Shown: positions 7,402 through 63,442 of the stretch, piece after piece
Layout of the letters: each line of letters opens with the position of its first letter
How positions within the stretch are numbered: position 1 is the first letter of the stretch
Assembly: GCA_036872755.1 (NCBI GenBank)
Contig: JAVHNS010000006.1
Location: 744,001 to 808,000, forward strand
Direction of reading: 5' to 3'
Origin: Orbilia blumenaviensis
Taxonomy: Eukaryota; Ascomycota; Orbiliomycetes; Orbiliales; Orbiliaceae
Length of the DNA: 64,000 bases
Position numbers and translations under genes: made by a program
The notes under the pieces: generated by a model
What the model was told of the DNA's origin: nothing
Databases searched by the model: none
The model's input: the letters and a program-made list of their open reading frames with translations, nothing else

Positions 7402-8572
7402 ATGGGTTGGTTTTCTAAGAAAGAAAAGGTTGCTTCCCCGGACACTGCTCCATCAAACCCCTATGCCCAGGCCCCTCCACCAGCCTACGACTCTGGCAGT
7501 GCTCCAGCTGCTTCCTACGACAATAAATCCGCCAATCTCTACGGTGGTGCCAAAAGCTCTTCCGGTGGAAGCAACCCTTACGGGGGTTCCCAGCAATCCT
7601 CCGAAGACTCCTATGGCGCTTCCATGTATGGGAACAATAGCAAGCCAAGCGGTGGTGCTAACCCATACGGAGGCAACAACTCCAACCCCTATGGCGGTGG
7701 CGCTGCTCAGGACAACGCTTATGGCAAGGGCTCCTATGGATATGGTTCCAGCGGATACTCTGCTGAAAGTGGTTACGACTCTAAGGACCCTTACAGCACC
7801 GGACAGAGCAAGCAAATGACTGCCGAAGAAGAGGAAGAGGAGGATGCCGACGCCCTGAAGTCCCAAATCCGCTTTACTAAACAGGAGTCCGTTGCCTCCA
7901 CCCGCAATGCCCTCCGTGCTGCTGCTAGAGCTGAGGAAGTTGGCCGAGACACTCTCGTCAAACTCGGTGAACAGGGCGAGAAGCTCCACCAGACTGAATT
8001 GAATTTGGACATGGCCAAGAACCACGGTCACCGTGCCGAAGATCAAGCTGCACATTTGAAGAGGTTGAACAGGAGCATGTTCGTCCCTGTCGCCGGGAGC
8101 CCCTTCGGACGCCAGGCTAGGGCTGATAAGGAGGAAGAAAAGATCATGGAACGTCACAGGGTCGCTCGTGAAGAACGAGAGAGAGTCCAGGCTGCTGGGA
8201 TGCAGGGTCAGCAGCAAGTCAAGGGTGGATTGAGGCCAATGGGAGCCCCGGCAATGGCACCAAGGCAGAAGATGAGCTTGGCCGAAAAGGCCAAGTTCCA
8301 GTTCGAAGCTGATGCCGAAGACGATGCTATGGAAGAGGAAATCGACGACAACTTGCACCAGCTCGGAGGTGCTATCGGCAGACTCAACCTTTTGGCCAAG
8401 ACACAAAACCAAGTTGTCCAGGACCAGAACAAGACCATCGAGCGTTTGAACCAGAAGGTAAGCTCTCTAACCGTATCCATCATATTCTTCAAAGATGCTA
8501 ATAGTATTATAGAGCGAGTCTGTCCACCAACAAATCGACCGAAACACCCACCGAATCAACAAGATAAAATAG
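7402..8572 (+). CDS. sec9: SEC9/SNAP-25-type Qbc t-SNARE
   Basis: Plasma-membrane t-SNARE light chain that pairs with Sso1-type syntaxin and Snc-type v-SNARE in exocytosis. Exons 7402-8457 and 8513-8572 (55-nt intron) give 371 residues. The intron must be spliced: the joined C-terminus reads SVHQQIDRNTHRINKIK, the end of the Qc SNARE helix, whereas unspliced sequence gives an unrelated tail. Residues 45-135 are low complexity with repeated NPYGG/YG units (Gly/Asn/Ser/Tyr, prion-like). An acidic run (EEEEEED) precedes the Qb SNARE helix (about 158-222, zero-layer Gln near 191). The Qc helix spans about 305-371. No transmembrane segment, as in the family. In Neurospora and in the Podospora/Cryphonectria equivalents, SEC9 alleles act as allorecognition partners of patatin/NLR genes. 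Confidence 0.93.
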
Positions 8573-9434
8573 ACGGGTTCCGCGGGATCGATTTTGTACA
8601 CTGTGTTGTTCTCTATGTACCCAGACTTGGCCTTGAATCTTGCTACGAATGGAATTGAATATATTGGACCTTGTATTGCTGTGATATTCTGGTGCATTGG
8701 GATGGACATGTTTTTATAGTTTTACCTTGCGCATGCCGTGATTGATTTAATATTTGCGTTTCTGTACACAAGTTAACTCGGAAGCCTGGTTTCTCTTTTC
8801 GGTGCCCGAGATAATTCGTCTTCGTTGCTCTGTCTCGACTGCTACTCCCTTGTTCCGTAGTAAAATATTGCCAGGAAAACGACCATACCAACTGCACTTC
8901 ACAGTATCTGGCATAGGTCTTATATTTTCCTATACGGGTCAATTAATGGCTTTCTTGATGGGATTTACTAGCTAGTCTTCAAAAGCCCATTGGCTGCATT
9001 GAAGCTTAGTATATCGGGGAGCATGTGCGTCCAATCGAGTTTGCAGACCTGCACGTAAGCTAGGCCCCTGAGAATTCTTTGGCAAGCTTGCAAGCCGATT
9101 ACCAAATAATAAAACGACGGCTACCCTTTTATATGGCTCATTACTTAGATACTAAGTGCTTACCTAGGTAAGTAGGTATTTAAGTAAGTAGGTAGCTGCC
9201 CGTGTCTCCATCTGCTGCTACCCGTGTCACCTTCTACCACCACTGCTTCAGGGCTCTATGGCTTGGTATCACGGCGCAACCAACCCCCAAAACGCCCAAC
9301 TTGACCTGGGAGCAGCCATTTGCCAATCTACGACACGAAATAACATTTGACCAACAAATGTGCAACACAAAGCGCAAGGACCGACCACGGCACCTTCACG
9401 AGTGCATAAACCTATCACGACATCATCAAATAAA
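8573..9434. other. Intergenic with TAGGTA microsatellite
   Basis: No gene seen between SEC9 and the tRNA. Bases 9161-9195 contain a degenerate (aag)taggta repeat (taggtaagtaggtatttaag...). Confidence 0.6.
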
Positions 9435-10269: not shown

Positions 10270-11999
10270 ATGAGAGGCTCTCAGCATTCCCCGGATGCGC
10301 AGTACATCCAATGCAAGGTCCACCGCAACCTCTCTCACCATTCATTCACGCATTGCCGACCACCTGCCCCGCCTTTATCTCCAATCACGCCGACCGGCCT
10401 CTCCCGCCTCCCCACTGAGCTGCTCCTTCAGATATTTTCGTACCTGTTAACATCATCTACTCCAATTATAATTTCCGACTTCCAAAAGCAAGATGTATCG
10501 TCTACCACATCTTCATACACCAATTTTAAAAATCGACTGGTAAACCACTATATCGGTGCGGCCTCCGGTCTCTTCCTAGCGGATAAGAAGATCAGCGATG
10601 CGGCGTTGACAGTGTTATACTCCTCCAATACATTCATTATCAAGCTCCGCGTGAACTTCACACGGGCATTTCTACTCTCTATCGGTGCGGTCAACCGGTC
10701 AAGGGTTAAGAATATCCAATTCGGAGCTTATTCGAAGTTATCGGCGACTACATGGCAGTATAACTTAAAGCGGGAGTTTGAAAAGCTAGGGAGTGATTTG
10801 CAGGATATGGCAATTCTTAGAGGGGTGGAGTATAAACTGGAGTGGACACATGGGAGGGATTATCCGGTTGGAGATATCGGGGTGAATGAGGTCGTGAAGG
10901 TGGAGCGGAAGGATATTGCAGGTTTTCATAAGAAGTTGCTGAGTGGGTGGGATGATGGACATGGGAATGTGCGGGTTGAGTACGTATTTCTTCCTTGATT
11001 CCTTTAGATAGGTATCATTAGTGCTGACTGTGGTGTAGCGTAATATCGACCTCGTCATCGCCCGCTCCGCCGGTGGTCCAACAACAATTTGGAATACTGT
11101 CACTACCGAACGAAATATTGGAAAAGATCCTATCGTATTGCCATTTGCAACAAGAAGTGCTGCTTTCGGGGCCCCATAACTATTTTTCCACGCTTCACAG
11201 AAACATGGGCGCTGGATCACTAGATGTTATTTTGAAACACCACTCGCCCTGCTTTGGCTACTTCTCGCTTTTCCTAGCATCTCGAAGAATTGGAACGATT
11301 ATGAGGGAGATTATATACGGCCAAACGAAGTTCAGGGTCAGGGATAGAGCGCTGAGCATACTGAGTAGTGTGCTCAACGAACAGGATTTCAATATGATTA
11401 AAGAGGTGGAATTGGTACTGGGAAATCCGAACCAGGAACGGATGAAGTTTGTGGTATTATGCTTAAAGGGGGCGCTCTGGAGGTTTATAAAGAGTGGTAG
11501 TCGGGTAGAAAAAGTTACGGTGAAGGTCGATAGGTTGTCGGTACCTTACTTGGGAACGATAGTACCTCTGCTGCGAGAGTTGAGGAAGAAATGTAACCTC
11601 ACGTTGGTGGAAACCTTGGGAACTGGGGCAGATTTGAAGGTCGGAGATAGCTTTGGGCTCGATATGGGTGCGGAAAACAATATAGAATGGATATTGGACG
11701 ACCAGGGCAAAGCTATTTGGACATGGAGCTGGGCGCAGAACGGGTGGAGGGACTTTGAAGAGGTTGTTGGACGGGAAGAAGGCGAGAGGGATCGGGTGGG
11801 CAAAGTGAATGGACTGAAGGAGAAGAAGAAAAATAAGAAGGGGAAGGAGAAAGTAGAGGAGAAAGTAGAGGACCCCGCGCCCCCTGAAGGATCTCAAAAC
11901 GGCAGGCGTCTTTCTGCTTCAAAGGCTGAAGGGTCAATGATGAGGAGAGTGAGCAAGAGTAAAATTATGCTCAAAAAATGGGTATCGGACCTGCATTGA
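10270..11999 (+). CDS. Protein with two F-box-like motifs (spliced fusion)
   Basis: Exons 10270-10979 and 11039-11999 (59-nt intron: GTACGT donor, CTGAC branch, GTAG acceptor) join in frame to 556 residues. Exon 1 has an F-box-like start, LSRLPTELLLQIFSYL (near residue 40). Exon 2 has a second one, LSLPNEILEKILSYC, just after the junction. F-boxes normally bind Skp1 in SCF ubiquitin ligases; the rest shows no LRR or WD repeats and is fungal-specific. The C-terminus is Lys/Glu-rich (KEKKKNKKGKEK) and ends with a basic Ser-rich tail. If the intron were retained, a stop at 10996 would leave a 242-residue protein. Two separate genes remain possible, but no ATG begins the second half near its F-box, which favours fusion. 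Confidence 0.7.
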
Positions 12000-14291: not shown

Positions 14292-15992
14292 ATGTTATCT
14301 AAAGCCCTTCAAAAGTTACAACTATCCCGCGATCGTAACAAGGATAACAGTCCAACTATAGCTTCGCTTGCCCGTATCGCTTCTGTCGAATCCCCAATCC
14401 CCTTTCCCGCCCAGGAACCCCCATTCTTTACCCTCTCACTCGACATCCTTTCCTTGATCCTTCAGTACCTCACTTTTCGAGATCGTGTATCTCTTTCACT
14501 TTCTACAAAAGGGCTCCGCCATCTATGCCCTCCAGTTCCACCTTCAAAGGCCCCTTCAGATATATCCCGTGCACGGTGTATAACCCTCATTCATAGACGT
14601 ATATTCACTCCACAGTCCCACTACACCCCTTCAAACCCCCATAAGTGCCCATACTGCAGTCATACATTATGTCCTCCCACATGTTCGACGGCCTTGTTAT
14701 TAGATAGCGCAACTGGTATTTTCTACCCAGCATCATTATACCCTATTCACCTTGCCGCCTTTAAATACTCCAAACCGACCCCCGTATCATCTTGGCAGTA
14801 TAGTACTATTTGGTGCCTTCATCACCGTTGTCCGCGGGATACAACATTAACGCAGAAGCCTCCTCTTCTTACATCTTTGACATCTTCTGCATCATCTTCA
14901 CTTTCCTCTTCTTCTAGCCAAAGGGTTTCAACTGGTTCAGAACGCTTCCTAGCTGAATACGAAAATCAAAATACATTCGCCTCTCTCAATAAAAAGCAAT
15001 ACCACTTATGTTTCTCCTCACCGTCTTGGTTGACGGGTTATAAACCGGAATATGAACTTCCCGCTAGGGTAATAAAAACCCGACGTGGCGATGACATATC
15101 CTCAGATTTAAAGCTGGCGGGTGTGCAAAAGTACGGATATCTGGATGAGATTGAAAGAAGGGCTGTCATAGATTCTGAGAACGGAGAAGGGAGGACGAAA
15201 GTCATCAAAGGCTGGCTGCAGCCTTGTTATGAACGAGTGTCTTACGAGAGTATATGTTTACACTGTTATAAACCGTTGGGGATGGCGAGTAAGAGTCTAT
15301 GGGCTCTAGACTTTCCCGCCTTTTGCGATTGTAATGGGTTTTCTCATGGCGAAACGGGCGAGGATACTATACCTGATACACAAGCTGGACCCTCAACAGC
15401 GACAGCGGATACAGATACAGATACAACACCAACCCCACGGAAGAAAAGATTACCAGGTTGCAAACTCTGCGGAACCTCTACCGTAAAATTTACGTTAATT
15501 GAAGTCTTTGATCTTCTTCGCGAAAAGCTCTCCCTTACGAAATCTGGTCTCAGGCAAAAATACTACCGGTTGTTTCTCGCGACGGAATGCCTAATCCTCC
15601 CACCTCCGCCTTCCCCACGAGCGTCAGCGGTAACAGTAGAAAAAGAGAGAATATACCCTCTATCTGCCACTCTTTCGAATACCTACTTGTCTATAGTTCG
15701 AGGCTTAGTAGGAAAAGACTACGTCATACGACCGTTACCGCCTCCACCAGCGTTCGGGATTACCGACCTGCCATATCCTGTTTTGAGAAGGGTGTTGGAG
15801 ATTTTATTGGAGGAGATGGAAACGGTTTATACTTACTACCAGGCTATGCAGAGCAGCTACATATTTTTGAAAGCGTATTACCGGGGGCCTCTGGGACGGG
15901 GGACGCTGGAGAGGCTGCAAGAGAGGTATACGTATAGTAGGGGAGTAAGCTGGCCGGCACCGTTTCCACAGGATCCGAGGCAGGTTGGATGA
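14292..15992 (+). CDS. F-box protein with Cys-rich putative zinc-binding motifs
   Basis: A single open frame of 566 residues. An F-box-like segment, LSLDILSLILQYLTFRDRVSLSLSTKGLRHLCP, lies at about 48-80. CxxC pairs follow: CPYCSHTLCPPTC (about 120), CLHHRCP, ICLHCYKPL, CDCNG and CKLCGTS near 400. They could form one or two zinc sites, but spacing does not match a named finger that I know. The C-terminal third (FTLIEVFDLLREKLSLTKSGLRQKYYRLF) is helical. Ser- and Thr-rich linkers separate the blocks. Probable SCF adaptor; substrate unknown. No intron is needed. Confidence 0.65.
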   Translation: MLSKALQKLQLSRDRNKDNSPTIASLARIASVESPIPFPAQEPPFFTLSLDILSLILQYLTFRDRVSLSLSTKGLRHLCPPVPPSKAPSDISRARCITLIHRRIFTPQSHYTPSNPHKCPYCSHTLCPPTCSTALLLDSATGIFYPASLYPIHLAAFKYSKPTPVSSWQYSTIWCLHHRCPRDTTLTQKPPLLTSLTSSASSSLSSSSSQRVSTGSERFLAEYENQNTFASLNKKQYHLCFSSPSWLTGYKPEYELPARVIKTRRGDDISSDLKLAGVQKYGYLDEIERRAVIDSENGEGRTKVIKGWLQPCYERVSYESICLHCYKPLGMASKSLWALDFPAFCDCNGFSHGETGEDTIPDTQAGPSTATADTDTDTTPTPRKKRLPGCKLCGTSTVKFTLIEVFDLLREKLSLTKSGLRQKYYRLFLATECLILPPPPSPRASAVTVEKERIYPLSATLSNTYLSIVRGLVGKDYVIRPLPPPPAFGITDLPYPVLRRVLEILLEEMETVYTYYQAMQSSYIFLKAYYRGPLGRGTLERLQERYTYSRGVSWPAPFPQDPRQVG

Positions 15993-17317: not shown

Positions 17318-20300
17318 TCAATAGAATTGTGGTGTAGAGCCGTGGTCAACGGCGCCCTTCCTCCAATCCTTCCAAACAATTGGGTGATCCTCCCTAAGAG
17401 AAAGGTTAGAATAAATCACACGAAATATAGGTTTTTGGGGCGCGTACTGTAGCATACTGTCGACGGGTTGTACTAGCTGACGTGTTTCCAACTCTTTATA
17501 CATCCTCTGTTCGTCTGCTAACTCCGCACAATATCTAGCCCATTTAACTCCCCAATTTTTTAAAGTTTCGTTGGGCACACCCTCCAGGAACTCTATAACC
17601 TCTGAGGACTCTTCAAGAAACCCGAGTGCCCGATCAAATCCAGAAAATAATATATATGTAGCATAGGTGCCTGCTGGAATACCACGAGGCCTGACTAAAC
17701 GACTGTATATCTGCGGCAAAAAGCTTGAGTCGCACCGACTGACTTGGTTCACATAATCAGCCACGAGACCACTTGTTATAAGAGCCCCGAGTAAACGGCC
17801 CGCTTCATGGCCAAAAGTGTCAATAATAGTGGAAACAGCACTCTTTCCATCCTTATAAAACTCTGTCAAACCCATCGTATTTACCTCAGTATCGATTAGT
17901 ACTTGAAGAAGGAGGCAGGAAATATGAAGCTTGCAGCAAAAAGGCCCGGAGTTAAACTCGATATTCGAACCCTCTGGCAGACCCAACCCATGAAATTGTT
18001 GCTGAATCTCCGATATTTTGCGGAAAAATCGGTATATAGATCGAGTTGTTTTGTGAAAGTCATCAATAAATTGGATAGTAGCAGATGGATCCACGAATAA
18101 ATCCATAGGCGCTTTTTGAGATTGGGCGTGCTGGACCCCATAACAAAAGATAGTGAATGAGTCTAGAGGCAATGGATAAATCGTTCTGTCATTGATATCT
18201 TTTATTCTGCATTGTAAATGCGAGATGATTTGACGCCGAATGTCCGGGGTTGGCAAAACTGCTCCTCCCTGCTCAGCAACCCGTATAGCAGCTTCGTTCC
18301 AAGAATATAGATTAAGAAGCTGCTCTCCATCGAATTTTGTCGAATTCCAGTACATAAGTCCACTCCTGAAATCTTTAATTGTAGTGATTGCCCTGATAAT
18401 TTCACTGGGGTTGAGGTACTGTAGCACTTCGGCAACTGTACCTGGGTGCATTTTCGGTATCGGAGCTGCACTAAGTGATCCGCTCTTAATTTCCCCAAAG
18501 CGCCTGTACTTACGTCTCAAGCTCTCTTTCTCGGAACTCGGATTGGATGATTTCCAGTGGAAGTAGCAGAGGCGGTATAATCTTAATGGGTGTTCGGTCA
18601 GACTTTTGCCGTATGTCTTGAGAACCTCCTCAACGTGGGACAGAATTGGTGGAACGTCTTCCTTGGCTTCCTATATTGACTTTATCGTTAAAACATATTG
18701 ATGAGGCAGGCTGTCTGAAGGAATTGACATACAGCAAATATGAGGCGCAGAGCCTGTATCATTTCTAGAGCCAGCGACCCTAACAAAAGGACCACCTCAA
18801 TCCAAGGTAAAGTCCAGTGATCTATAAATAACCTGATCTCAAGTAACGCGGGGAATAAAAATGTTTTTGTATAGAGTTTTTCAAGAATATACACCCATGA
18901 ATGGCAGGCTGCTTGAAGATCTGAGGGTATTACACGTCTAATCATTCTGTGGTCGATACTCGACAAAGGTGTCTCAGAAGATCCGATATTACAGCTATTC
19001 ATTTTGAGGCTTGAACCCATGAGTTTTATGTCGTAGAGAGATTGCCATAGATATTCGCTAAAATCCACGGTATGTATATTCTGGAGCAGTAATTTTGTAT
19101 AAGCGGCAGCTCTAACCATCGCAAATGATCGCGATTCCGTGTTCCTGTCCACGTTGTTATCGTACCCGCATATGCCTCGTATCATGATTAGTGGTATGTT
19201 AATTTTTAATTGTGAGTGATTTAGTGCCGGACAAACAGCTAGTATGTTTTCCTGGCCGTCTGGCGCACCTTGATAGTACTCATTTACTGTTCTTGTCTCG
19301 AAAATTTTTATACCGCCATAATGAATAAATGGGTGGCTGAAAGCTCGATTGGGCCGATCCACCTCTTTGGAGAGGCTACAAGAGGCAAAGTGGTCAACAG
19401 CGTCCCCGCCTGCAGGTATTTGCTCAGATTTGGGGGGAACTCTTTGGTCGGGCCCAGAGTGACGAACTTTCCGATTAGAATTATATCGTGATTTCTCTGC
19501 ATTCTTTAGTATATCAGATATAGCTGCTTCATATGCTTTGTATCTGTCTTTCTGGTTAGCAATGACATTTCTTAGGCCCCACTCAGGGGCGCCTATTAAA
19601 CCAGATATCGTGGTTTCTAGAGATCCCTCTTCAATCGAAACCAGCCCTTGCGCCGTCTGGTCTCTATCAAGACTCCCCAGAGCAGCGACAACGACATCAC
19701 CTAAACGAACATCGTATGTGTCCATATCGAACTGGTCGGCTACTTTATGCGATGGAGATGGGCTAATTCCGCTTCCAATTATCAGCCAAAGACGCAACCC
19801 CGGGAAGCTGATTCGTAGCCGGACGGCGAAGTCCTCTACTGCAGCTACAAGGCACGCGCCAGAAGCGGGGATTGGGTGTGCGATAACAATATTATGCACT
19901 CCTATCCTGCCAAAATCCAAATGCCAGTGGTCATCTGGGACGTCCCTGGAATCTTCCAGGTATAGTTTGTCAAGGACACTAAAGACCCATGTAACCTCAT
20001 GAGAGTCATCACAAATCCAACAAATCGTAAAATCATCAGCTGTCGGCTTCTCGTAGGTATCTGCCGCATCGCGACCTCGGGAGCCATCTCGATGTTTAGC
20101 TAAATAGTCTGTTATATTAGACCATTCTTGTGACTTTGAGTAGTCGAGCTCATGATCGTCTAAAGAGTTGTCTAATGAATGGTCCTTTGTTGGGGTGCCG
20201 AACTGGAGCCCTTGGGATCCGTCTGAGCTTAAGCTAATTTGATTGCTTTCGGAGTATTTTCCTAGAGAATCCGTGTAATTTTCTGTTGGGGTTGCGCTGG

Positions 20301-22230
20301 TTCCCTCTTCGTCATCACTTAGTGCTTCGGTCTGTATGTCTATCAACCGCAATGACAAGACCATAATCTTTTGGAGATGCCCAGCAATATGATTTTCCAT
20401 TTCGGCTGGGATAGAGAAGGCATAGTGACTCGTATTGCTTGAGTCTCGCAAGCTTTCCGGTCTCATCCGGCAAAGAGGGCAAATATCCGGGTTCTGGGAC
20501 GTGTCAAAAGCCGCTTCGTCAATGATTCGTGTGATATCCATAGGGCCCAAGCTCTCCCAGAACTCTCTATGGATCATCCCTAGATGGCCTTGAAGCTCTT
20601 TTGTAGAGGTGAATAGCACTTCGGTGCCAGGTTCATGTGTGTCATCCTGGAGCGTATTCCCATCACCACCTTCTGCACCCTCGTTCTTTATGCTTCCCAC
20701 GCGGCATGCCCACATCTCTTGTTGGTGGATGGATTGCGCCCAGTTTCGATTATGCTTAGCCATGTGGCCCTTCCACTTTTTGAGGGATGAATAGACCCTG
20801 CCTTTTCCAGCGCAATCCTCGGAAATGCAACAAAAGGGTTCCAAGTCGGCGGAGTAATGCTCTCTAAACATACATTAGCTCAACTTAAAAAAAAAGCAGA
20901 GAAAAGCTTCAAAGATGTTGGATAATCCAAGGAAGATATCCTCTCAGTGGGTCCGCTTGGAATATTTGACGGACCTTCCAAAAGCAGTCCAACGTCCATC
21001 CTTTACCAATCCCAGACCAATATCATTGAAGCACCATTGGCATCGTCGGTCCGATGTACCTTGGAAGAGTAGAATCCGTGGCTCGTGCGTCTCGGCCATG
21101 ATGACTGTCGTGCCAGGTCGAGATTTGGGAATCTGTATTGCTTTGAGATGCATCTGAAACAAGGACGGATCGGCTGATGTTACTGTAGGCGGTGGTTGAT
21201 CTCGTCTTTCTACGGGGTTTAAAGACGGTGCAGCGGTAGCGGTAGGAGCGACTGGGAGAGAGGGAGTAGGGTCGCTGGATGAAACTGAAAAGTATGGAGT
21301 TGCAATGTTTGGAATCTCCGGGTGGGGTCGACGTACATCCATTTTCAGGTTTTCGTGCCTTGACTTACGGAGCGCTAAGCGTGCATAACGGTCAGCCATG
21401 CTCTGCCCCAGTTGGAGTATGAGACTCTCTGGTGCATCTGAATACAGAATCTCGAGAGCTAAGATGCATAGTGTCTCGAAACCATCTAAGTCAATGGTGT
21501 CAGAGTGTTCAGATGCGTGGATTCTTGCCCTTGTTGTTTCGGTTGTCGTCGATGCCTTTCGAATAGCGACTGCAATTTGGTTCAGCTCGGTCAAAGCCTC
21601 GTCTATGGTTCTACAACAGTATTCGATGAAAGCTGATGTTTCTTCTTCGGCGTTTGGGCTAGTCGGTTTATCGTCTTCTGCGGGTTCAATTACTATATAA
21701 TGAAGCTCAGCTCAATTAGATATCGATTCCCTACTACATATATTTAACCAACCCTCTTGCGTCGCTCTCAGCTACCTTGGTTGTTCATGTTTTTCTGAAT
21801 TTAGATTACACTACTCACGTTGATCAAGATTTCGTCTTAAAATCAGTAGCAGCCTGACTATAAGATCACGGATCTCAGGCTGTTTCCGTAGGCGGTAGTC
21901 CAAGTTTGCTCTCTTATCCGCAAATACACCTAAATATTCTTGCCATGCTCTGAACCGTTGATCATACTCTTCTATCCTATCTCTCGCCAGTGGTGAGATA
22001 TCCCCGTCTGAACCTTTAAGACATCCTCGAAGAAGGTCGTCGCAGTCCCATGCTAAAGAAAATATGGGTTCCTCCGGATCATCCTCTCGATAGGTCGCAG
22101 ATAAATGTTGGTCAGCCGCTTCTGCCAACGGTTCCGGTGTCGGCTGGGCCGACCGAATTGGTATGGGAGGGACTTCGGACATGTCCCCTGGGGATAACGT
22201 ATCGTAGGTAGGCCCATCTTCCGCATCCAT
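17318..22230 (-). CDS. NLR-like protein: helical N-term, zinc fingers, nucleoside-phosphorylase-like domain, no NACHT
   Basis: Exons 22230-21819, 21692-20975, 20863-18733 and 18670-17318 splice in frame to 1537 residues. Residues about 60-250 form an acidic helical region of the type that heads fungal NLR proteins. About 345-530 hold C2H2-like elements: CQWC, then EHYSADLEPFCC..C, W..H and CPLC. About 655-974 is a PNP_UDP-like domain (FGRIGVHNIVIAHP, YDVRLGDVVVAALGS, PLIMIRGICGY). Instead of a NACHT/NB-ARC ATPase, only about 40 residues follow before an arm (IPSDLQAACHSWVYILEKL...LPWIEVVLLLG, about 1018-1075) that normally lies C-terminal to NACHT in fungal NLRs. The remaining 450 residues are unrecognised. 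The least certain join is exon 2 to 3 (donor GTCCGT at 20974). If that site is not used, the frame stops at TGA shortly after (20945) and the gene is broken. Probable intracellular sensor or regulator; divergent neighbour of the S8 protease. Confidence 0.68.
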
Positions 22231-22842
22231 TTGTTCTTATAGTAAAGGACTTATGACCCCGGTGGGCGTATATAGATCTAAATAGAGGTATATTGGGATA
22301 TGGATATACAATATATATCCATATAAAACTCGTGCCCAAGTCGAGAATTATGGTACCTTTTGGAGAATTAATGGTAGAGGGAGCCCGATTTCCTTTTTGC
22401 CCGTTGGGCGAACAGAGATATGGTACTGTTCGTAACGGATATGCGTGGTCGGAGAGTTGGGCTGCTGTTAGCCCCGCAGGTTTAAATATTTGGAGAAGGT
22501 TCCAAGAATTTGAAGAGCCTTGAATCTGCCATATATGTCCACGTGAGGCATGCATGAAACAAACCTTACAGCAGCAACGCGAAATCCTGGCGCTCCACGA
22601 TATTAAGATCATGATTAATAATTGGTCCTGAGAGCTTTCATGGGTCTAAGGGGCAACGGTTGCACGGAATATATCGCTGTTATCGATCTAGAAACCCTCG
22701 CCGAGGTGTTGTATTTTGTTGATTTTGGGCGGTGGAGTTGCTTGCGCGCAAATTTACATACTACACACAGCGGCAGCAGCCGATTTATCTTTCTACATTG
22801 AAACTTATTCACCCATTTTGTTCATCAATATACGGAATTACC
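22231..22842. promoter_or_regulatory. Divergent intergenic region between the NLR-like and protease genes
   Basis: 612 bases separate the ATG of the minus-strand NLR-like gene (22230) and the ATG of the plus-strand protease (22843). Contains TATA-like AT runs (about 22295-22325, with palindromic atggatatac...tatatccat). Presumed shared promoter, inferred from geometry only. Confidence 0.5.
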
Positions 22843-25800
22843 ATGGCTGAAGCTCCCGAACGGCTGAGCTACTACCCCACTATCTTGCTCAAAGCATTTC
22901 ACCAACACTGGAAGAAGTTTCGCCTTCAGAGACACGATTACCATCGCGATGTAAAACGTGGAGGCCAAAGGCTAAATCGCGCAGCCCATCGTCTACAAGA
23001 CTGTCGGCAGGCCTTTGAGAATGATTTTGTCACTATGATTTCGAACGAAATCTCCCCCGGTAAAGAAGGACTACTGCTGGCGGCTGGCGAACCCCTCCCC
23101 AAACTCTTCACGCTGCTTGATAGGCTGGTGAATCCCAAGTTCGACCCTACTGATTATGCACCGGTCCAGAATCCTCAGATAAACCCAGCTAGATGGTGCC
23201 TGCATCGTAATCTTGAGAGGGTTCTGTCACTCCTCAGCCGATTCGACGGCCTCTTCGATTTAAGTAGTGGCACTCGGCACTCGGTCTTCACTATCTCTAG
23301 CTTGGAAGATGGGATTGCTGCCCGTTTAGCTATTAAGAACGTTTTATGTATGTTAGATAGCATACAGGTGCAATCCATAGATCAGACACTAAGACCTTCT
23401 CCGACGACTCGATTCCCGAGAAATTTGGTGTTGGAACCCCACCCAGCTGATAAATTCCTTGAGTTTTTCGATGATGAATACCGGCCATTTGTCGCTCGGA
23501 TACTTGGTACTACCCTTTCCGAATTTAGAAAATGCCCTTCGGCTTTCGATCACAAGATTATGATACAGCTCCCACAGCTTGGGAAAGGAGGCAGACTCTC
23601 TTCAGTCCCATTGAACCAAGAAATGGTTCTCGATGGGATTATATATTGCCCAAATTTATTGAAATGGCATATTGTCCACTGCAAATTTGATGAGTAGGGC
23701 ATCTCTCAGCTCTCCCTAGTCATGGCTTGTGTTAATAGCTAACGGTATTTTGATAGCGTCTTTGAGTCTTCCGATCAACTTTGCGAGGTAGCAAAGATAG
23801 CATTAGATCAAGGAGAAGTGTCTGTGCTACTCTTTCATGAGTCCATATGTAGATTTTCTGAGGATCCTAGTGCATCTTTCCATCCGAAAATAGATCCAAA
23901 CGCGTACCCTCTTCGAAGTCTTAAGGCTCTGATTAAGGTTGACGAGCTATTCAACATGCCCAACGCTCGATGCAAGAATCAGTGCACATTTAATCACTCG
24001 CAGCGTCGAGAGCTGGCAGTCAAGCTGCTCCTACATATTTTGGCTTTCATCAGCACAGATAGTATGCCTGATAGCTTTGATGGCGACCAGGTCTCATTTT
24101 TGAGCAAATCAGGATCTTCGGAGAACTGCAATAGAGAAGAACCATATTTCTCATGCCGTGCGGGCTGCAGAACTAACAACATAGCAGCAACTTCATTTGA
24201 AGAGGCAGACACTGAGACGCAAATGGTTCGTGCGTTTGCTGAGCTTGCAAAATTACTCATGGAAATTGAATACGGCCCTATAGATGAGCAAGATCGTACT
24301 GGACCTGAGAGTGACAGCCTTGCAGCTGTTCGAGATTTCTATAAAAGGCAGAAAATTCATAACGACTTTTCGAAAGAGAACTATTTGAAAGCCGTCCGTA
24401 ACTGCCTGGAATTTGAGAGAGTATTTAAGTCCGAACGGGCCCGAAAAGCCGGAAGATTTGAAACGGTTGAAGATACGCGGAAAAGGATAATTCGAACAGA
24501 AATTATCCGCAACGTTCTAGTAGACCTCCCAGCATTTCAGCAACCACTACCAAAAAGAAGACGAGCTCTCGATTCCGACACGCGAATTCCGTTCCCAGAC
24601 CGGCACCGATTCCAAGAGCCAGACGCCATAGACTCCGACTCGGATAGCGATGAAGGTACGATTTTTAATCGGTATAATAAGAGTCAGCAAAGACTGCTCT
24701 CAGCACGAACTGGGATAAAACCGGTCACTTTGGTAGTATCGACACCCTCTGTCGCAGCAAACACTGCACCCAAACGAGCTTCTGTTTCAAAGATTCCCCG
24801 ACTGGGGGCATCAAAAATTCCAAGCGAAAGAAAGAAAGGTCAGTACATTCTTTATTCACGGATCTACCCATTGTTCATGAAAATCCTTAAATCTAACAGT
24901 AGCAATAGTGTCATTTTCGGATTTGGGGCCACCAAAAACAAATCCTGGCTGCCTTTTCGATCTCGAGAGTACCCCAGTGTCAATACCACCTCAGACGTAA
25001 GTATTTCTCTAATCTCAAAAAGAAATAAATCGAGATGGTAACAAATCCCGCAATTTTTTCACGTGCCCAGTGCTGTCGCTACCAATACTTGGCTCGAAGC
25101 TTTAAAAGAAAACACATTTCCAATAATAAATCGGTTAAGGAGGGAGGGCGACAAGCCCCGAGTGAAGGTTGCGGTTATCGATACGGGACTTGATAAAGAA
25201 AATTCAAGAATCAAGAAGCACTTGGAGGAAAACTTCTCAGAAGTCGTTGGTTGTTTGGATTTGATTGGTTCGTCTGAAAATGTAGAAGACGAGATAGGCC
25301 ACGGTACAGCTGTCTGTGACATACTACTGCAGATTGCCAAAGTGGATTTATATGTTGCGAAAGTCTCAAACACCCCCCAATTCGATTCTTCGGCTCCTAG
25401 CAGGGTCGCAAAGGTAAGATATATTGCTTTGGCTCGTAGATATATCAACAAAACTAATATATTTAGGCAATTACGCACGCATCATCAGCTGGCGGATGGA
25501 ATGTCGATATAATCGTTTTATCTCTTGGCTTCGATGACGAAGATGACAGTATCCGTCAAGCCATTCTGAACGCTCACTCGAAAGACAAGATCATATTTGC
25601 AGCCGCATCAAATTCTGGTTCCCTTATGCCGGAGAAACTGGTGTCGTATCCAGCGCGGATACAAGGGCATGTTATCAGCATTAGATCTGCGACGGGACAG
25701 AGCCAAAAGTCTCCTGCATCGCCCCGAGCTTCATATGGCGATGATAATTTCATGGTCGTTGGGGAGGGTATTAAAGCAGCTTGGCCACAGAATCTAAATG

Positions 25801-26105
25801 ACGGCTCACCAGCCCGCTACGTTTCTGGTAGCTCGTTTGCCACACCTGTAGCTGCAGGCATCGCAGCTCTTGTATTAGAATTTTCGATACAAAGGGGACC
25901 GAAAGGGCGCAATATATCCGATGAGAACCGCCAGCGGTTATGGACCCATCGGGGTATCCGGGGAGTATTTCATTCAATGGCCACGGTTGATAGTCAAGCA
26001 GGTTCGAATGGTTGCAGGATGATTTGTCCCTGGAAGCTATTTGCGAGGAACCGAGGGGATGAAGGTTGCAAGATTGAACTCAATCTGCTGATGCAGAACC
26101 TTTGA
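22843..26105 (+). CDS. Subtilisin-like (S8) serine protease with long helical N-terminal domain
   Basis: Exons 22843-23693, 23757-24838, 24909-24996, 25071-25413 and 25467-26105 splice in frame to 1000 residues; the start is an ATG in context ACCATGG. Residues 1-640 are helical with no signal peptide, so the protein is likely intracellular. I associate this region with the large domains preceding S8 peptidases in fungal incompatibility-type proteins (possibly DUF7580; unverified). A basic PKRRR and an acidic DSDSDSDE linker lie near 560-600. The protease domain spans about 700-930: Asp711 in VAVIDTGLD, His751 in GHGTAV, oxyanion Asn837 in AAASNSG and Ser911 in SGSSFATPVAAG. The triad is intact, so it should be active. 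It sits between the NLR-like gene and the gasdermin-like gene. In Podospora, the S8 protease HET-Q2 cleaves the gasdermin-like HET-Q1. Confidence 0.85.
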
Positions 26106-26190
26106 CGCACCTGTATAGCCTTCTTAACCGTATCCATGTTGGGTTACTTCACATCAAACCTTCTACCTTCCACTACAGAGTTATATTTAC

Positions 26191-26211
26191 ATATACATAT
26201 ATATATATATT
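26191..26211. repeat. (AT)n simple repeat
   Basis: Alternating AT run seen directly. Confidence 0.85.
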
Positions 26212-26293
26212 ACCTGAAAATCCACACCTAACTCTTACGCAGCAGGTTTATATGCAATAAAACCCTTCTAAGCCGCTTTTAAGTTTACTCCTA

Positions 26294-26323
26294 CTTTCTT
26301 TCTTCTTCTTCTTCTTCTTTTTT
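26294..26323. repeat. (CTT)n simple repeat
   Basis: A ttcttcttcttctt tract followed by poly-T and poly-A runs. Confidence 0.85.
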
Positions 26324-26723
26324 AAAAAAGGAAAGAACTGCCTGCAAATAAATGTTGCCGAACTAGGGCGCGGCTAATTATTTGTATAGCCAAACATAAG
26401 AGACCCTATACAATCGTAAATTAGATAGAATTGAAGAAACCCAGGCAATATACTCCAAGCTCTCAAGCCCAATCATCTACGACTAGAATATCTGTATATC
26501 GATATAAACCTACGCCTAGGTCCAAATTTTCCCGTTAGCGCAGTCTAGCTTAGCTAGATTATGTACTATATGTATATCGCATGTAGATGGTCTTGCATTA
26601 TTTTACTTTGCAGTTCAGCCTTGCGACATAGTGCCGCTCAGAAGGCTGACAACAAATTTAGGGTGTTTGTCAATCATCGATAAGGATCCACTCTATAAAG
26701 TCACAACAGGAAGGTTTGATATC

Positions 26724-27656
26724 ATGTCTACCCAAGTATATGTCAATACACCATATTCCCAGTTATTCCTTAACGTGGGTGATACAGCATATTTTATTCA
26801 TTGCTTCCAGGCCTACCTATTACCCACTATGCCCAAAAAAACCTATTTGCGTCCCCCGAACGACGACTATGCGCCAGACACCAATATCTGTCTAGGTCAC
26901 GTCTGGCGGGATCCAAAGGACCCAGGTTCATTTATCGGCCCTCCACTACCTATCCCTTGGGATATAGCTATTAACCATACTCGCAAAGAATCTTGTAGCA
27001 TAGATCTCAGTCACGACTCTCACGTCAATGTTGGTTTTTGGGCAAAAGTCGCCACGCTTCCTATCACAGCGGGCGCCTTCACATCCTGTGGCACGGCTAA
27101 AAGCAGCATATACAACATTCCTACCATGGACACCTACTCTATTGAGCCAACTCCTGAGTATGTCAGTGCTAGTGTCGGGCCAGCCTCAGCGGAGGACATT
27201 CGAAGGGGGTGTAATTTCTATATGGTGACTGGTGTCAAAATTGCGCGAGGTGGGAGCGGCTTAAATACTGAGTACAAAACCCTTGGGGTCGGTGCTGCCA
27301 TCGGCGTCGATGCTACTGCAGTAGGAGTACCTGTTGAGGTCGGGAAGGAAATCGGCTACCTAAGAGGCGGGGATAGTAGCCAAAGCTTCGGCTCTACCAG
27401 CGATTTTGTTTTCGCATATCGCGTTCGGGAAGTCTTTTACTCTAGAAAAAGGGTTTTGAAAACAAAGCAGTACAACAAAGGCGCAGTGATGGGGGCTATC
27501 GAGACTATTACCCCTACTGACGAAGAAAAGGTTGAGACTCAGTATGTTATTGAGGATGCCGAGATTGGGGATGACGACTTTGATTTTGAGATCGATGGGG
27601 GAGGGTATCCTTTTGTGGATGATAATGGCGAGGAAGTTGGGTTTATAATTCAATAG
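26724..27656 (+). CDS. Gasdermin-like protein (putative pore-forming cell-death effector)
   Basis: A single exon of 310 residues from ATG 26724. The frame is open another 31 codons upstream but only with GTG, so a missed 5' exon is possible. No signal peptide. The middle shows alternating beta-strand pattern with a Gly/Ala/Val-rich hairpin: YMVTGVKIARG (about 166-176), GVGAAIGVDATAVGVPVEVG (about 188-207), then SSDFVFAYRVREV-type strand (about 226-237). This arrangement resembles the gasdermin N-terminal fold (human members have VVTEV...Gly-rich...IPxGSxLAFRV). A basic patch (SRKRVLKTK) is followed by an Asp/Glu-rich tail (265-310), a plausible autoinhibitory segment removed by proteolysis. 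It lies 618 bases downstream of an S8 protease on the same strand, the arrangement known for fungal gasdermins. The fold call is by eye; an unrelated beta-rich protein is the alternative. Confidence 0.6.
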   Translation: MSTQVYVNTPYSQLFLNVGDTAYFIHCFQAYLLPTMPKKTYLRPPNDDYAPDTNICLGHVWRDPKDPGSFIGPPLPIPWDIAINHTRKESCSIDLSHDSHVNVGFWAKVATLPITAGAFTSCGTAKSSIYNIPTMDTYSIEPTPEYVSASVGPASAEDIRRGCNFYMVTGVKIARGGSGLNTEYKTLGVGAAIGVDATAVGVPVEVGKEIGYLRGGDSSQSFGSTSDFVFAYRVREVFYSRKRVLKTKQYNKGAVMGAIETITPTDEEKVETQYVIEDAEIGDDDFDFEIDGGGYPFVDDNGEEVGFIIQ

Positions 27657-41634: not shown

Positions 41635-43026
41635 TCAGTTAAAGCTCTGCCACTGCTTCTCCCAGAATTTGAGTAGGTCCGCCATCAAGGGCCGATCGTT
41701 TGGGTCGTCTGCTATTGATAGCTGTATCATGTGTTTCCATGATTCTGGGATGTCCTCAGAAGCACTCGACCAGTGAACCGTTTGAGTCGAATAGTCTGTT
41801 ACCCCTGGTTGATTCTCGAGTCCCACCTGCTCTAGCAGAACCCACATTGTTTTTCCAAGACTGTATACCTCAGCAAGTTCCGATGCCCTTGGGTATTTTG
41901 TATTCCACTCCGGGAACACATTCCACCCTGAATCACTGTATGGTTCATTATACCGCTCCGGCCCCTCATACCGAGTATATTCTAGTTGTCGGCGTCCATT
42001 AACCTCCACATCAAGCTCATGAACCTCAGAAAATCCATCGGCCTCGGGAGCTACTATAAATGGATTTGCACCACATTGTTCCCAGTCGACGATCAACACA
42101 TTATCATCATCGTCGAGGATAACATTTGGAGCCTTGAGATCTTGATGCCAGCATTTCGCTTTAAAGTGAACATGCGCCATCGCTGAGCAGAGCTGGTAAC
42201 ACCATTTCGCCTTGAGGTTGAGGGGAAGCCTTATCCCTTCATCAACCGTTTTATCCAATATATCTGCCAGGGAGCCTTTGCCGTAGAACGTGTAAAGGCT
42301 CCCACAGATCAATTTCTCTTCGTGCCCGCCTTCAACAGGGTTAACGGAAACGAGGTATTCCGCGGGAGGTATGATATTCGGATGTCGGAGAAGGAGGTGA
42401 TTAACCATTGAGATCTCGCGATAACAAGCTTCGATCTCACGTTGAAACCCATCCTCTCCGCAAACCAAGAATTGGTAGAAGGAAGTGCCTTTGAAGACAA
42501 ATTTTTCGTCGGGGGCGGAGGCAATAGAGGCCTTCGTACTCGTCATACGCCAACTTGGGAGCGGACTTTCGTATACGACCTCCTCGTACGACACCGTCTT
42601 GTTTTTGAGCGCAACATGGTTGGATTGGTTGTTGGACTGGACGATGCTGTCTTTGGGTTTAAGTAGCTTGCAAAATGCAGAATAAGACTTTGATTCCTGA
42701 ACGAGATCTGCGTGAAAGGCCTCGTTTTCGCTACTTATGTATAGCACCGAATCTGCTTGTAAGTTTGTTTTGTGGAAATAGTTTTTGTCCTCAGCGATTT
42801 TGATAGCTTCGAGAAGATACTCAGTCCCCCGTTTGCGTTGAGAGGCCAATTCAGCGGCTGTTGTTTGAGGGCTGGAGAAGGTCTCAATGATGCGATTTTC
42901 TAGGCTTTTCGGCGTGTAATTCTTCTTGGGTATTGCTGCTATTAACTTTGTAGGACCATTGTAGAGCAAGGCGAAGAGTGTCGAGCATGCCTTGCCCTGG
43001 TTTACAGTGTGGAGTTTCCACGCCAT
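41635..43026 (-). CDS. Protein kinase-like protein with atypical DFG (DWE)
   Basis: A single exon of 463 residues from the ATG at 43026; a further in-frame ATG at 43227 would add 67 hydrophobic residues that look like leader sequence. The first 170 residues are unrecognised. The kinase fold follows: VFKGTSF (Lys179), helix C YREISMVNHLL (Glu203), hinge, GKGSLADIL, catalytic loop HQDLKAPNVIL (294-304), and VDWEQCG (314) where DFG is expected. E-rich APE region: YEGPERY. The HxD...N set and a metal-site Asp are kept, so residual activity is possible. A true pseudokinase cannot be excluded, as the Gly-rich loop is not evident. Related proteins are expanded in Pezizomycotina without known roles. 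Confidence 0.7.
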   Translation of the reverse strand: MAWKLHTVNQGKACSTLFALLYNGPTKLIAAIPKKNYTPKSLENRIIETFSSPQTTAAELASQRKRGTEYLLEAIKIAEDKNYFHKTNLQADSVLYISSENEAFHADLVQESKSYSAFCKLLKPKDSIVQSNNQSNHVALKNKTVSYEEVVYESPLPSWRMTSTKASIASAPDEKFVFKGTSFYQFLVCGEDGFQREIEACYREISMVNHLLLRHPNIIPPAEYLVSVNPVEGGHEEKLICGSLYTFYGKGSLADILDKTVDEGIRLPLNLKAKWCYQLCSAMAHVHFKAKCWHQDLKAPNVILDDDDNVLIVDWEQCGANPFIVAPEADGFSEVHELDVEVNGRRQLEYTRYEGPERYNEPYSDSGWNVFPEWNTKYPRASELAEVYSLGKTMWVLLEQVGLENQPGVTDYSTQTVHWSSASEDIPESWKHMIQLSIADDPNDRPLMADLLKFWEKQWQSFN

Positions 43027-44235
43027 CTTGTTGTATTTCGAAGATTTGAATGATGCTGAATCGAACAATTGGGTCCTCAAGCCAGTTATAGGAAGGAAAT
43101 TGTAAATGAGCGTCACTATTTTGTAAATGTAAGAGTCTAGGAGGATGGATGGACTGTTTCTAACTAAAGCTGTGGATAAAGAGAGCTGGGAGCTAGGAAT
43201 CCAAAGACAACACGTCAACACGTTCATCTACTCTCAAAACGTCAGACCCATGATCAGACGCCAGACATTATGCATTATGAGGTGGTCTCTTTCACATGCT
43301 GTGCGCCTCTTGATAAGAAATTACGTTCATCAGATCGAGAAATTGCAGTTGATTCGAATCCAATTCAAGGCATAGCGTGGTCTTGGGCCTCGCCTATTCC
43401 CACGGGGAGGGCTGAGAGATCCTACCCGTCCCGTCATGGGCAAGCTTGCAGGCTGGGGGGAGAACATGCACATTTGACACCAGGATTTGGCACCGAATGG
43501 CCTGGTTTGCCTTCGCCCCAAATCACGCTATTAGTCATTTATTATCCGATCGTGTCAAACTGGATGCTGTAGAACGGTCGAATGGGCTCAGAGGTCCCTC
43601 AATTTTTTAATTTTTTTTTACTATTTTTATTTCTTTTATCTATAACCCTTTAGTATAGATGCTTTACAAAAACCTAACTTCCTGAGATTGTTACTTAGTA
43701 ACCGTTGCAAATTGTGCGCATGCGGATACGCTGAATATATTTTAGAGCTTTGAAATTGCCACTAACTATGCCTTAGCCTGTTTCTATGTATCGGCTACAT
43801 GGGCTGCTCTGGACGTAAGAGCGCGAATTGATCACTGCAGCCTACAAAGTGAAGATGGGAAGTCCTATTAATCAATGCTCTAGATTGCCTGCTAAGTATT
43901 ACAGACCGATCGACCGTAACACCTTTCCAACATTGGAGGCGATTTCTTCAAGTATTGTGTGTTTTTACTCAATTATGTAAATATCCTTAGTAAGCACTCA
44001 CCTAGTTGTAGTATATAGGCGTGTCGCCATGTCCTAACTCGATTGGGGGCCGGCATTCCTTAGGATGATTTTGGAACCTAGACCCCGGCTTTTCAAGAAG
44101 AAAGGTTAACACTGGTCTCGTAAATTGACACCTTCCGATTTGATCTCATCTGCATAACCAACTCGATTTTGACAACATTCCTAACTAGCAAATTCCAGAT
44201 CGTTCTTGTACCGGCATTCCAAAAATATAATTCAG
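43027..44235. other. Intergenic
   Basis: No gene seen. Contains T-rich stretches near 43600-43660. Separates the kinase-like gene from the metabolite-type cluster. Confidence 0.55.
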
Positions 44236-62605: not shown

Positions 62606-63442
62606 ATGTTGTCTCTCACAGGGTGGTCGCTAAAGAAACGGCTAGCATATGACGACACGAGCGCAACATCCAGGGTCTTGAGTCTCCCAGAACTTTTCGA
62701 AAAGATACTCCAGTTCGTGACGACTAAAGATATCAATAAATTTCGTCGAGTGTCTCAAACATGGCGACTATTTATTGATACATCTCCCAGCCTCAGCACG
62801 ATTGCATTTCGCAATCCTCGGTTATTTACGGAGGGCGAAATCCCAGATTTGTGTGAGGGTTACCTCAAATTTCTCGAGAAGCAAATGCTGGAGGGTATAC
62901 GAACCATTGAAATTGAAAGGGATCGAGATAATCCAGGGCTCGGGGAATTCCAACATTTCCAGAAAGCCATCGGAAACAAAACCTCGCTTTCACCAGACTT
63001 GCAAATTACGCAACGAGCAAGCTCATCGGTGCATTTAGTCTTCTATGGATATGGGAGTGCGGAGTGGTTAACGAAAATAAATTCTTTGGCCCAATCCAGA
63101 TCCGATAGGGTTAGAATAGACGGCCATCATTATTATTGCTACTATCGTCGGCTCGATAATGCCCACGGTGTAAGATGTAATGATGTTTTCCATGCTATCA
63201 TTGCAACAATCAATGAACTATATTCCTTCAAAGAGGAATTCTGTGTTACGAGCGTTAGCCTACAAACTCGGAAACCGGGTGTACTTCCGGACTTCGATGG
63301 CCCCACAAATTTTGAAAAGGAAAGAGTGTTATGGGATCGCCACTGGTTCAAACGTAAGTTCACGACCGTTAATCGCAGCACTCTAACTACCGCTACTTTT
63401 AGCGCCTATGTGGATACCTGGGATCTAATCAAGGCTTTTTAG
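62606..63442 (+). CDS. F-box protein
   Basis: A single exon of 278 residues from ATG 62606. The F-box lies at about 25-65: LSLPELFEKILQFVTTKDINKFRRVSQTWRLFIDTSPSL, a good consensus with the RRVSxxW core. The rest (VHLVFYGYGS..., HHYYCYYRRLDNA) matches no repeat family that I know; it is typical of the many fungal-specific F-box proteins with unknown substrates. Stop TAG at 63440. Confidence 0.8.
   Translation: MLSLTGWSLKKRLAYDDTSATSRVLSLPELFEKILQFVTTKDINKFRRVSQTWRLFIDTSPSLSTIAFRNPRLFTEGEIPDLCEGYLKFLEKQMLEGIRTIEIERDRDNPGLGEFQHFQKAIGNKTSLSPDLQITQRASSSVHLVFYGYGSAEWLTKINSLAQSRSDRVRIDGHHYYCYYRRLDNAHGVRCNDVFHAIIATINELYSFKEEFCVTSVSLQTRKPGVLPDFDGPTNFEKERVLWDRHWFKRKFTTVNRSTLTTATFSAYVDTWDLIKAF

Follow-up and report, generated by a model that had tools for sequence, protein, structure and literature searches.

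Gene content of the locus

The 64,000-nucleotide window analyzed here (contig C6, GenBank accession number JAVHNS010000006.1, positions 744,001 to 808,000) comes from the 42.46-Mb genome (G000) of Orbilia blumenaviensis, a relative of the nematode-trapping fungi. Three neighboring genes are considered: a minus-strand gene derived from a NOD-like receptor (NLR), a divergent gene encoding a pseudokinase-like DUF7580 domain fused to an S8 peptidase, and a gasdermin gene. All three had been claimed in an earlier note on this DNA and were present with the structures it implied, and no stop codon breaks any of the three gene models. The public O. blumenaviensis protein TWF730_009071 is 100% identical to the window protease.

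The gasdermin gene lies in a frame open from 26724 to 27656, previously read as an effector of 310 residues. The frame exists, but its start had been set 35 codons too early: P0001 (275 aa) begins at Met36, corresponding to ATG 26829, and 25 of the 29 database rows of alignment A1 (P0001 included) start at this column, the remaining four (P0004, P0021, P0024, and P0067) carrying N-terminal extensions. Judged from this alignment, the first 35 residues are probably not coding. With the start moved to ATG 26829, the gap between the protease and gasdermin genes becomes 723 bases and not the 618 given earlier. Over the pore-forming domain, profile comparisons matched RCD-1-1 (E value, 1.6e-23) and HET-Q1 (E value, 9.6e-13), and single-sequence comparisons matched RCD-1-2 (E value, 9.6e-5) and HET-Q1 (E value, 0.004). 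The 275-aa protein was predicted to adopt the gasdermin N-terminal fold, and the gasdermin-like nature of the effector was thereby borne out by the profile comparisons and by structure prediction, the check that the note had proposed. Residues 219 to 259 had low predicted local distance difference test (pLDDT) scores and were followed by two short strands (259 to 263 and 269 to 273) with pLDDT of about 55. The acidic tail described earlier is real, and it is kept among closer gasdermin homologues and less so in distant ones. Linker and tail together form a candidate inhibitory segment that could be removed by the protease.

Our five-exon model of the protease gene encodes 1003 aa, three residues more than the public model P0089 (TWF730_009071; 1000 aa). 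DUF7580 (PF24476) was matched with E values of 1.7e-44 in the genome search and 6.5e-45 on P0089, and the S8 domain (PF00082; E value, 9.5e-20) covers residues 704 to 926 of P0089, where the catalytic triad Asp711, His751, and Ser911 is intact; the 1000-residue protease with this triad that had been reported matches both the public model and the Pfam family. The DUF7580 domain of a paralogue was predicted to have a kinase-like fold, and no recognizable HRD and DFG motifs were seen by eye in 11 aligned DUF7580 domains. On this predicted fold and alignment, the protein is pseudokinase-like. It resembles the HET-Q2-type proteases of gasdermin clusters in its S8 domain, intact triad, and gasdermin-adjacent gene.

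For intron 2 of the minus-strand gene, three donor sites were tried, one alone of which kept the frame open, and the resulting four-exon spliced model gives exactly the 1537 residues stated earlier. The 612 bases between its start codon and that of the protease gene are a candidate shared promoter, given the divergent arrangement. Pfam returned no family for the 1537-aa protein at E ≤ 0.1 and hence no NACHT or NB-ARC match. Residues 52 to 775 aligned with P0070 of Arthrobotrys musiformis (40% identity; E value, 2e-147), residues 56 to 588 with the NACHT protein P0082 of Fusarium kuroshium (25% identity; E value, 6e-33), and residues ∼650 to 974 with proteins bearing PF01048 (BLASTP; best E value, 1.4e-20, P0071), a region for which Pfam gives no match. 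Because of these alignments and the lack of a Pfam match, the gene is, by sequence, NLR-derived and without an ATPase. The NLR-like regulator of the earlier note is borne out by homology of the N-terminal part to P0082; it has no NTPase of its own, and its sensor role is putative. The EME..G and DYxDS motifs, kept in relatives, were lost from its purine nucleoside phosphorylase (PNP)-like domain in a motif alignment.

Table 1. Features of the window (contig C6) and open frames on the C2H2 side of paired loci
Feature	Position	Strand	Basis
NLR-derived partner gene, 1537 aa, 4 exons (22230-21819, 21692-20975, 20863-18733, 18670-17318)	17318..22230	-	Spliced model
N1 helical module, residues 51-137	21820..22080	-	Iterated hidden Markov model (HMM)
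C2H2 zinc-finger block, residues ∼330-551, contains intron 20974-20864	20341..21117	-	HMM
Degenerate PNP/UDP-phosphorylase-like domain, residues ∼651-974	19072..20043	-	BLASTP, motif alignment
Gap between divergent start codons, 612 bases	22231..22842		Gene coordinates
Pseudokinase (DUF7580)-S8 protease gene, exons 22843-23693, 23757-24838, 24900-24996, 25071-25413, 25467-26105	22843..26105	+	Five-exon model
DUF7580 domain, spans intron 1	23467..24528	+	PF24476
Peptidase S8 domain, includes intron 25414-25466	25159..25880	+	PF00082; coordinates by hand from exons
S8 triad codons	Asp 25180-25182, His 25300-25302, Ser 25833-25835	+	By hand from exons
Fungal gasdermin, 275 aa, single exon	26829..27656	+	Homologue start alignment, profile search, predicted fold
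Flexible linker and acidic C-terminal tail, residues 218-275	27480..27653	+	pLDDT, alignment
SEC9 (SNAP-25-type SNARE) homologue	7402..8658	+	phmmer to yeast SEC9, E value 4.2e-29
C2H2-side frames: degenerate PNP	Window, C6b		
C2H2-side frames: C2H2 and partly degenerate PNP, then NPHP3_N/NACHT and ankyrin frames	C4	Same strand	
C2H2-side frames: intact PNP, then P-loop stretch	C1		P-loop by eye
C2H2-side frames: incomplete PNP-like stretch	C10		
C2H2-side frames: NB-ARC-like stretch	C3, L008:1372-3161	-	1.1e-4, below cutoff
C2H2-side frames: NACHT-like stretch and ankyrin	C11		By eye

C2H2/DUF7580 pairs across the genome

A genome search with the N terminus of the partner identified six loci, each adjoining a DUF7580 gene. 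In the family search, the stretches around all 13 DUF7580 loci were read, HMMs were iterated on them, and three additional family members served as queries against the genome. The C2H2 block HMM matched at 11 loci, every one head-to-head with a DUF7580 gene and with approximate start codons 343 to 1231 bases apart; the N1 module was found by iterated HMM at 10 of these (not L017) and in P0070. The searches also matched L025, an ordinary C2H2 gene, and, outside the C2H2 block, C6:715373. We estimate roughly that a single C2H2-family gene would start ≤1231 bases from one of the 13 DUF7580 genes by chance with a probability of 7.5e-4. Median identity among paired family members was 20 to 25%, and partner distances correlated (r = 0.39, P = 0.005), which is what joint duplication and joint evolution of the partners should produce. 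Loss of the DUF7580 neighbor was seen for none of the 11 C2H2-family genes found. The layout of paired NLRs, with divergent neighbors and a short gap, was present at all 11 loci; the partners are not both NLRs, the DUF7580 side being pseudokinase-like. This head-to-head linkage is the unusual part of the locus.

Nine of the 11 pairs had an enzyme domain on the DUF7580 side. The gene ran on from DUF7580 into S8 at three (window, C1, and C11) and, in the same or an abutting open frame, into PNP at six (C3, C4, and C5, called by Pfam, and C6b, C10, and C17, called by alignment), while at C12 and C14a no enzyme domain was seen after DUF7580. At the unpaired DUF7580 locus C14b, a PNP frame lies farther downstream. 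The PNP motifs were kept in all seven aligned DUF7580-side domains (C14b included). A gasdermin gene adjoined the 3′ end of the protease gene at all three S8 pairs; the six PNP pairs, for each of which ≥2.8 kb of downstream flank was covered, showed none (one-sided Fisher test calculated by hand, 1/84).

Domains on the C2H2 side were read from unspliced open frames of the partner genes (Table 1). The PNP motifs on this side were wholly or partly lost in three of the four alignable copies and kept at C1. At C3, a caspase domain (Peptidase_C14; E value, 4.6e-10) lies just after L008:1372-3161 in another frame, head-to-head with DUF7580-PNP, and the C2H2-family gene at this locus is possibly a caspase-NLR. 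A long regular ankyrin-like array was seen by eye on the C2H2-side strand at C11 (L011:3212-4495, minus strand).

Gasdermin clusters and other genes in the window

Genome searches identified three gasdermin genes, each with an adjoining S8 gene. A fourth, with two exons (C1, L006:1727-2999), came to light when the sequence adjoining the C1 S8 gene was read and is therefore not independent support for the pairing; a profile built without any G000 sequence matched its exon 1 with an E value of 4.4e-20 and its exon 2 with an E value of 0.0032. At C8 (L004:1674-5715), the gasdermin lies with a short S8 protease gene. Full trios besides that of the window were present at C1 (gasdermin, DUF7580-S8, and C2H2-PNP) and C11 (L005/L011).

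Beyond this genome, 6 of the 14 non-window S8 matches putatively came from the same genome as a gasdermin match, and for four of these, each from a different species, the gasdermin and S8 genes carried consecutive locus tags (DRE_02243/02244, FQN49_007809/007810, DL765_009367/009368, and N7496_009077/009078). The gasdermin-protease pairing is conserved and already known in fungi. In A. musiformis, the partner is two locus tags from a gasdermin (011582 and 011584), by which a trio is indicated there as well. Conservation of the trio, on which the earlier note had staked its reading, was thus found as recurrence within the same genome and as this indication from a relative.

The SEC9 homologue lies 8.7 kb from the NLR-derived gene and, from linkage alone, is a possible, speculative guardee. 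F-box-type genes were seen at 11073-11999 (below the Pfam cutoff), 14292-15992, and 62606-63442, the first two between SEC9 and the NLR-derived gene, and a kinase-like gene at 41635-43227 on the minus strand (Pkinase; E value, 2.7e-11).

Interpretation of the locus and alternative readings

The locus is probably a pyroptosis-like module of fungi, topped by a receptor pair. This reading builds on which genes and families are present, on their folds and catalytic residues, and on the head-to-head linkage and the swapping of effectors, and the het-Q-like module with a divergent NLR-derived component envisaged earlier gains support from the gasdermin fold, the S8 triad, and the NLR-derived partner. 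In such a module, the short acidic tail would hold the gasdermin (26829-27656) inactive until the S8 domain of the pseudokinase-protease cuts the linker ahead of it, and the freed gasdermin N-terminal domain would form membrane pores and kill the compartment. The NLR-derived C2H2 protein would gate its pseudokinase partner, either restraining it or sensing a trigger for it, and its degenerate PNP domain may be a noncatalytic bait or interface. Similar pairs at the eleven loci would employ S8 or PNP on the pseudokinase side and PNP, NACHT with ankyrin, or an NB-ARC-like domain on the C2H2 side. Cleavage, pore formation, and gating of this kind could have an immune or allorecognition role. A wider reading, which we put forward only tentatively, is fungal paired-receptor immunity, with a divergent NLR or NLR-derived C2H2 sensor, a pseudokinase executor with a swappable enzyme (S8-gasdermin or PNP nucleosidase), degenerate PNP copies as decoys in the sensor, and SEC9 maybe guarded.

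About 80% of fungal gasdermin genes lie in clusters with protease genes (about 63% with an S8 gene), and the protease proteins of these clusters are described as sensors (PMC10197012, PMC12881547); a review adds that fusions of the protease to predicted kinase-like domains occur and that such pathways frequently form clusters of two or three genes (PMC12881547). The locus resembles het-Q1/het-Q2 in having a gasdermin adjoining an S8 gene and a putative short C-terminal inhibitory segment. However, het-Q1 and het-Q2 are idiomorphs, whereas the window protease and gasdermin genes share one chromosome and the protease gene has as its divergent partner an NLR-derived C2H2 gene whose family is paired with DUF7580 genes genome-wide. 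Similarity in fold and sequence to Neurospora RCD-1 is evident, although RCD-1 is activated by coexpression of two variants without a clustered protease, unlike the window layout. The plant pairs RRS1/RPS4 and RGA5/RGA4 are likewise divergent, with a short common intergenic region and an extra noncanonical domain on one partner (PMC9528088), but one window partner is a pseudokinase-enzyme and not an NLR, and the likeness is by linkage alone, with no homology claimed. C2H2 fingers have already been described in fungal NLRs, a Sordariales survey listing 34 NLRs that carry them (PMC12258605). The same survey counts 13 head-to-head NLR-NLR pairs among 225 two-gene clusters and calls them rare (PMC12258605); in our reading, a pair with one non-NLR partner would fall outside that count. 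A looser analogue is Aspergillus SltB, a pseudokinase plus serine protease that shares one pathway with the C2H2 factor SltA (PMC4557415), DUF7580 and SltB being likened by description; the SltB protease is chymotrypsin-like, not S8, and the pathway is one of cation stress (PMC4557415).

The clustering figures and the sensor role ascribed to cluster proteases would also agree with a plain two-gene gasdermin cluster, in which the protease handles both sensing and cleavage by itself and the minus-strand gene plays no part, as would C8, where the gasdermin is accompanied by a protease only. This appears unlikely given that the family of the third gene was found solely head-to-head with DUF7580, at 11 of 11 loci found, and that the A. 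musiformis partner also lies two locus tags from a gasdermin. The Slt analogy could instead suggest a signaling pair in which the C2H2 protein is the target of its pseudokinase-protease partner and gasdermin was acquired secondarily at three loci; most pairs have neither protease nor gasdermin, and the C2H2 block weakly matches the ordinary C2H2 gene L025. We consider it very unlikely, as the protease class differs from that of SltB, the enzyme at 6 of the 11 pairs is PNP, which is unable to cleave a partner, and a gasdermin is present at each of the three S8 loci. A further possibility is that the linkage merely descends from a single ancestral divergent pair and was preserved by chance or through a shared promoter, neither partner depending functionally on the other. 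All pairs are paralogous and their partner distances correlate just moderately (r = 0.39), yet partners that have diverged to 20 to 25% median identity have kept their neighbor in every case (0 of 11 C2H2-family genes lost it) and their 343- to 1231-base spacing, which leaves this explanation a slim chance. The alternatives partly overlap, and their probabilities need not sum to one.

Several points weigh against the pyroptosis-like module with its receptor pair. Its support consists of gene content, homology, fold, and linkage, and the window partner, lacking an NTPase by Pfam, cannot act as a canonical NLR. The eleven pairs are paralogues and not independent events, with C3/C4 and C6b/C10 close copies of each other in both partners. 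Genome searches score the best candidates only, and unpaired family members may have been missed; among the 13 DUF7580 loci, C14b (L018) and C6c (L019, a weak DUF7580 match within a kinase-like protein) had no partner in the stretch fetched. Degeneracy of the C2H2-side PNP is no rule, the C1 copy keeping both motifs. In the 16 kb examined at C8, the gasdermin is accompanied by S8 but by neither DUF7580 nor a C2H2 partner, so gasdermin here does not always need the C2H2-pseudokinase pair. Cross-species support for the third gene comes from one species by locus tags, the middle gene 011583 being unseen, and no A. musiformis protein was among the 15 S8 matches.

The locus supplies a concrete candidate regulator for a gasdermin-cluster protease. 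Since the enzyme can be either PNP or a protease accompanied by gasdermin, the C2H2-pseudokinase pair resembles a general control device. The findings further suggest that, if pairs with a non-NLR partner are counted, head-to-head pairs of the immune type are common in at least one fungus.
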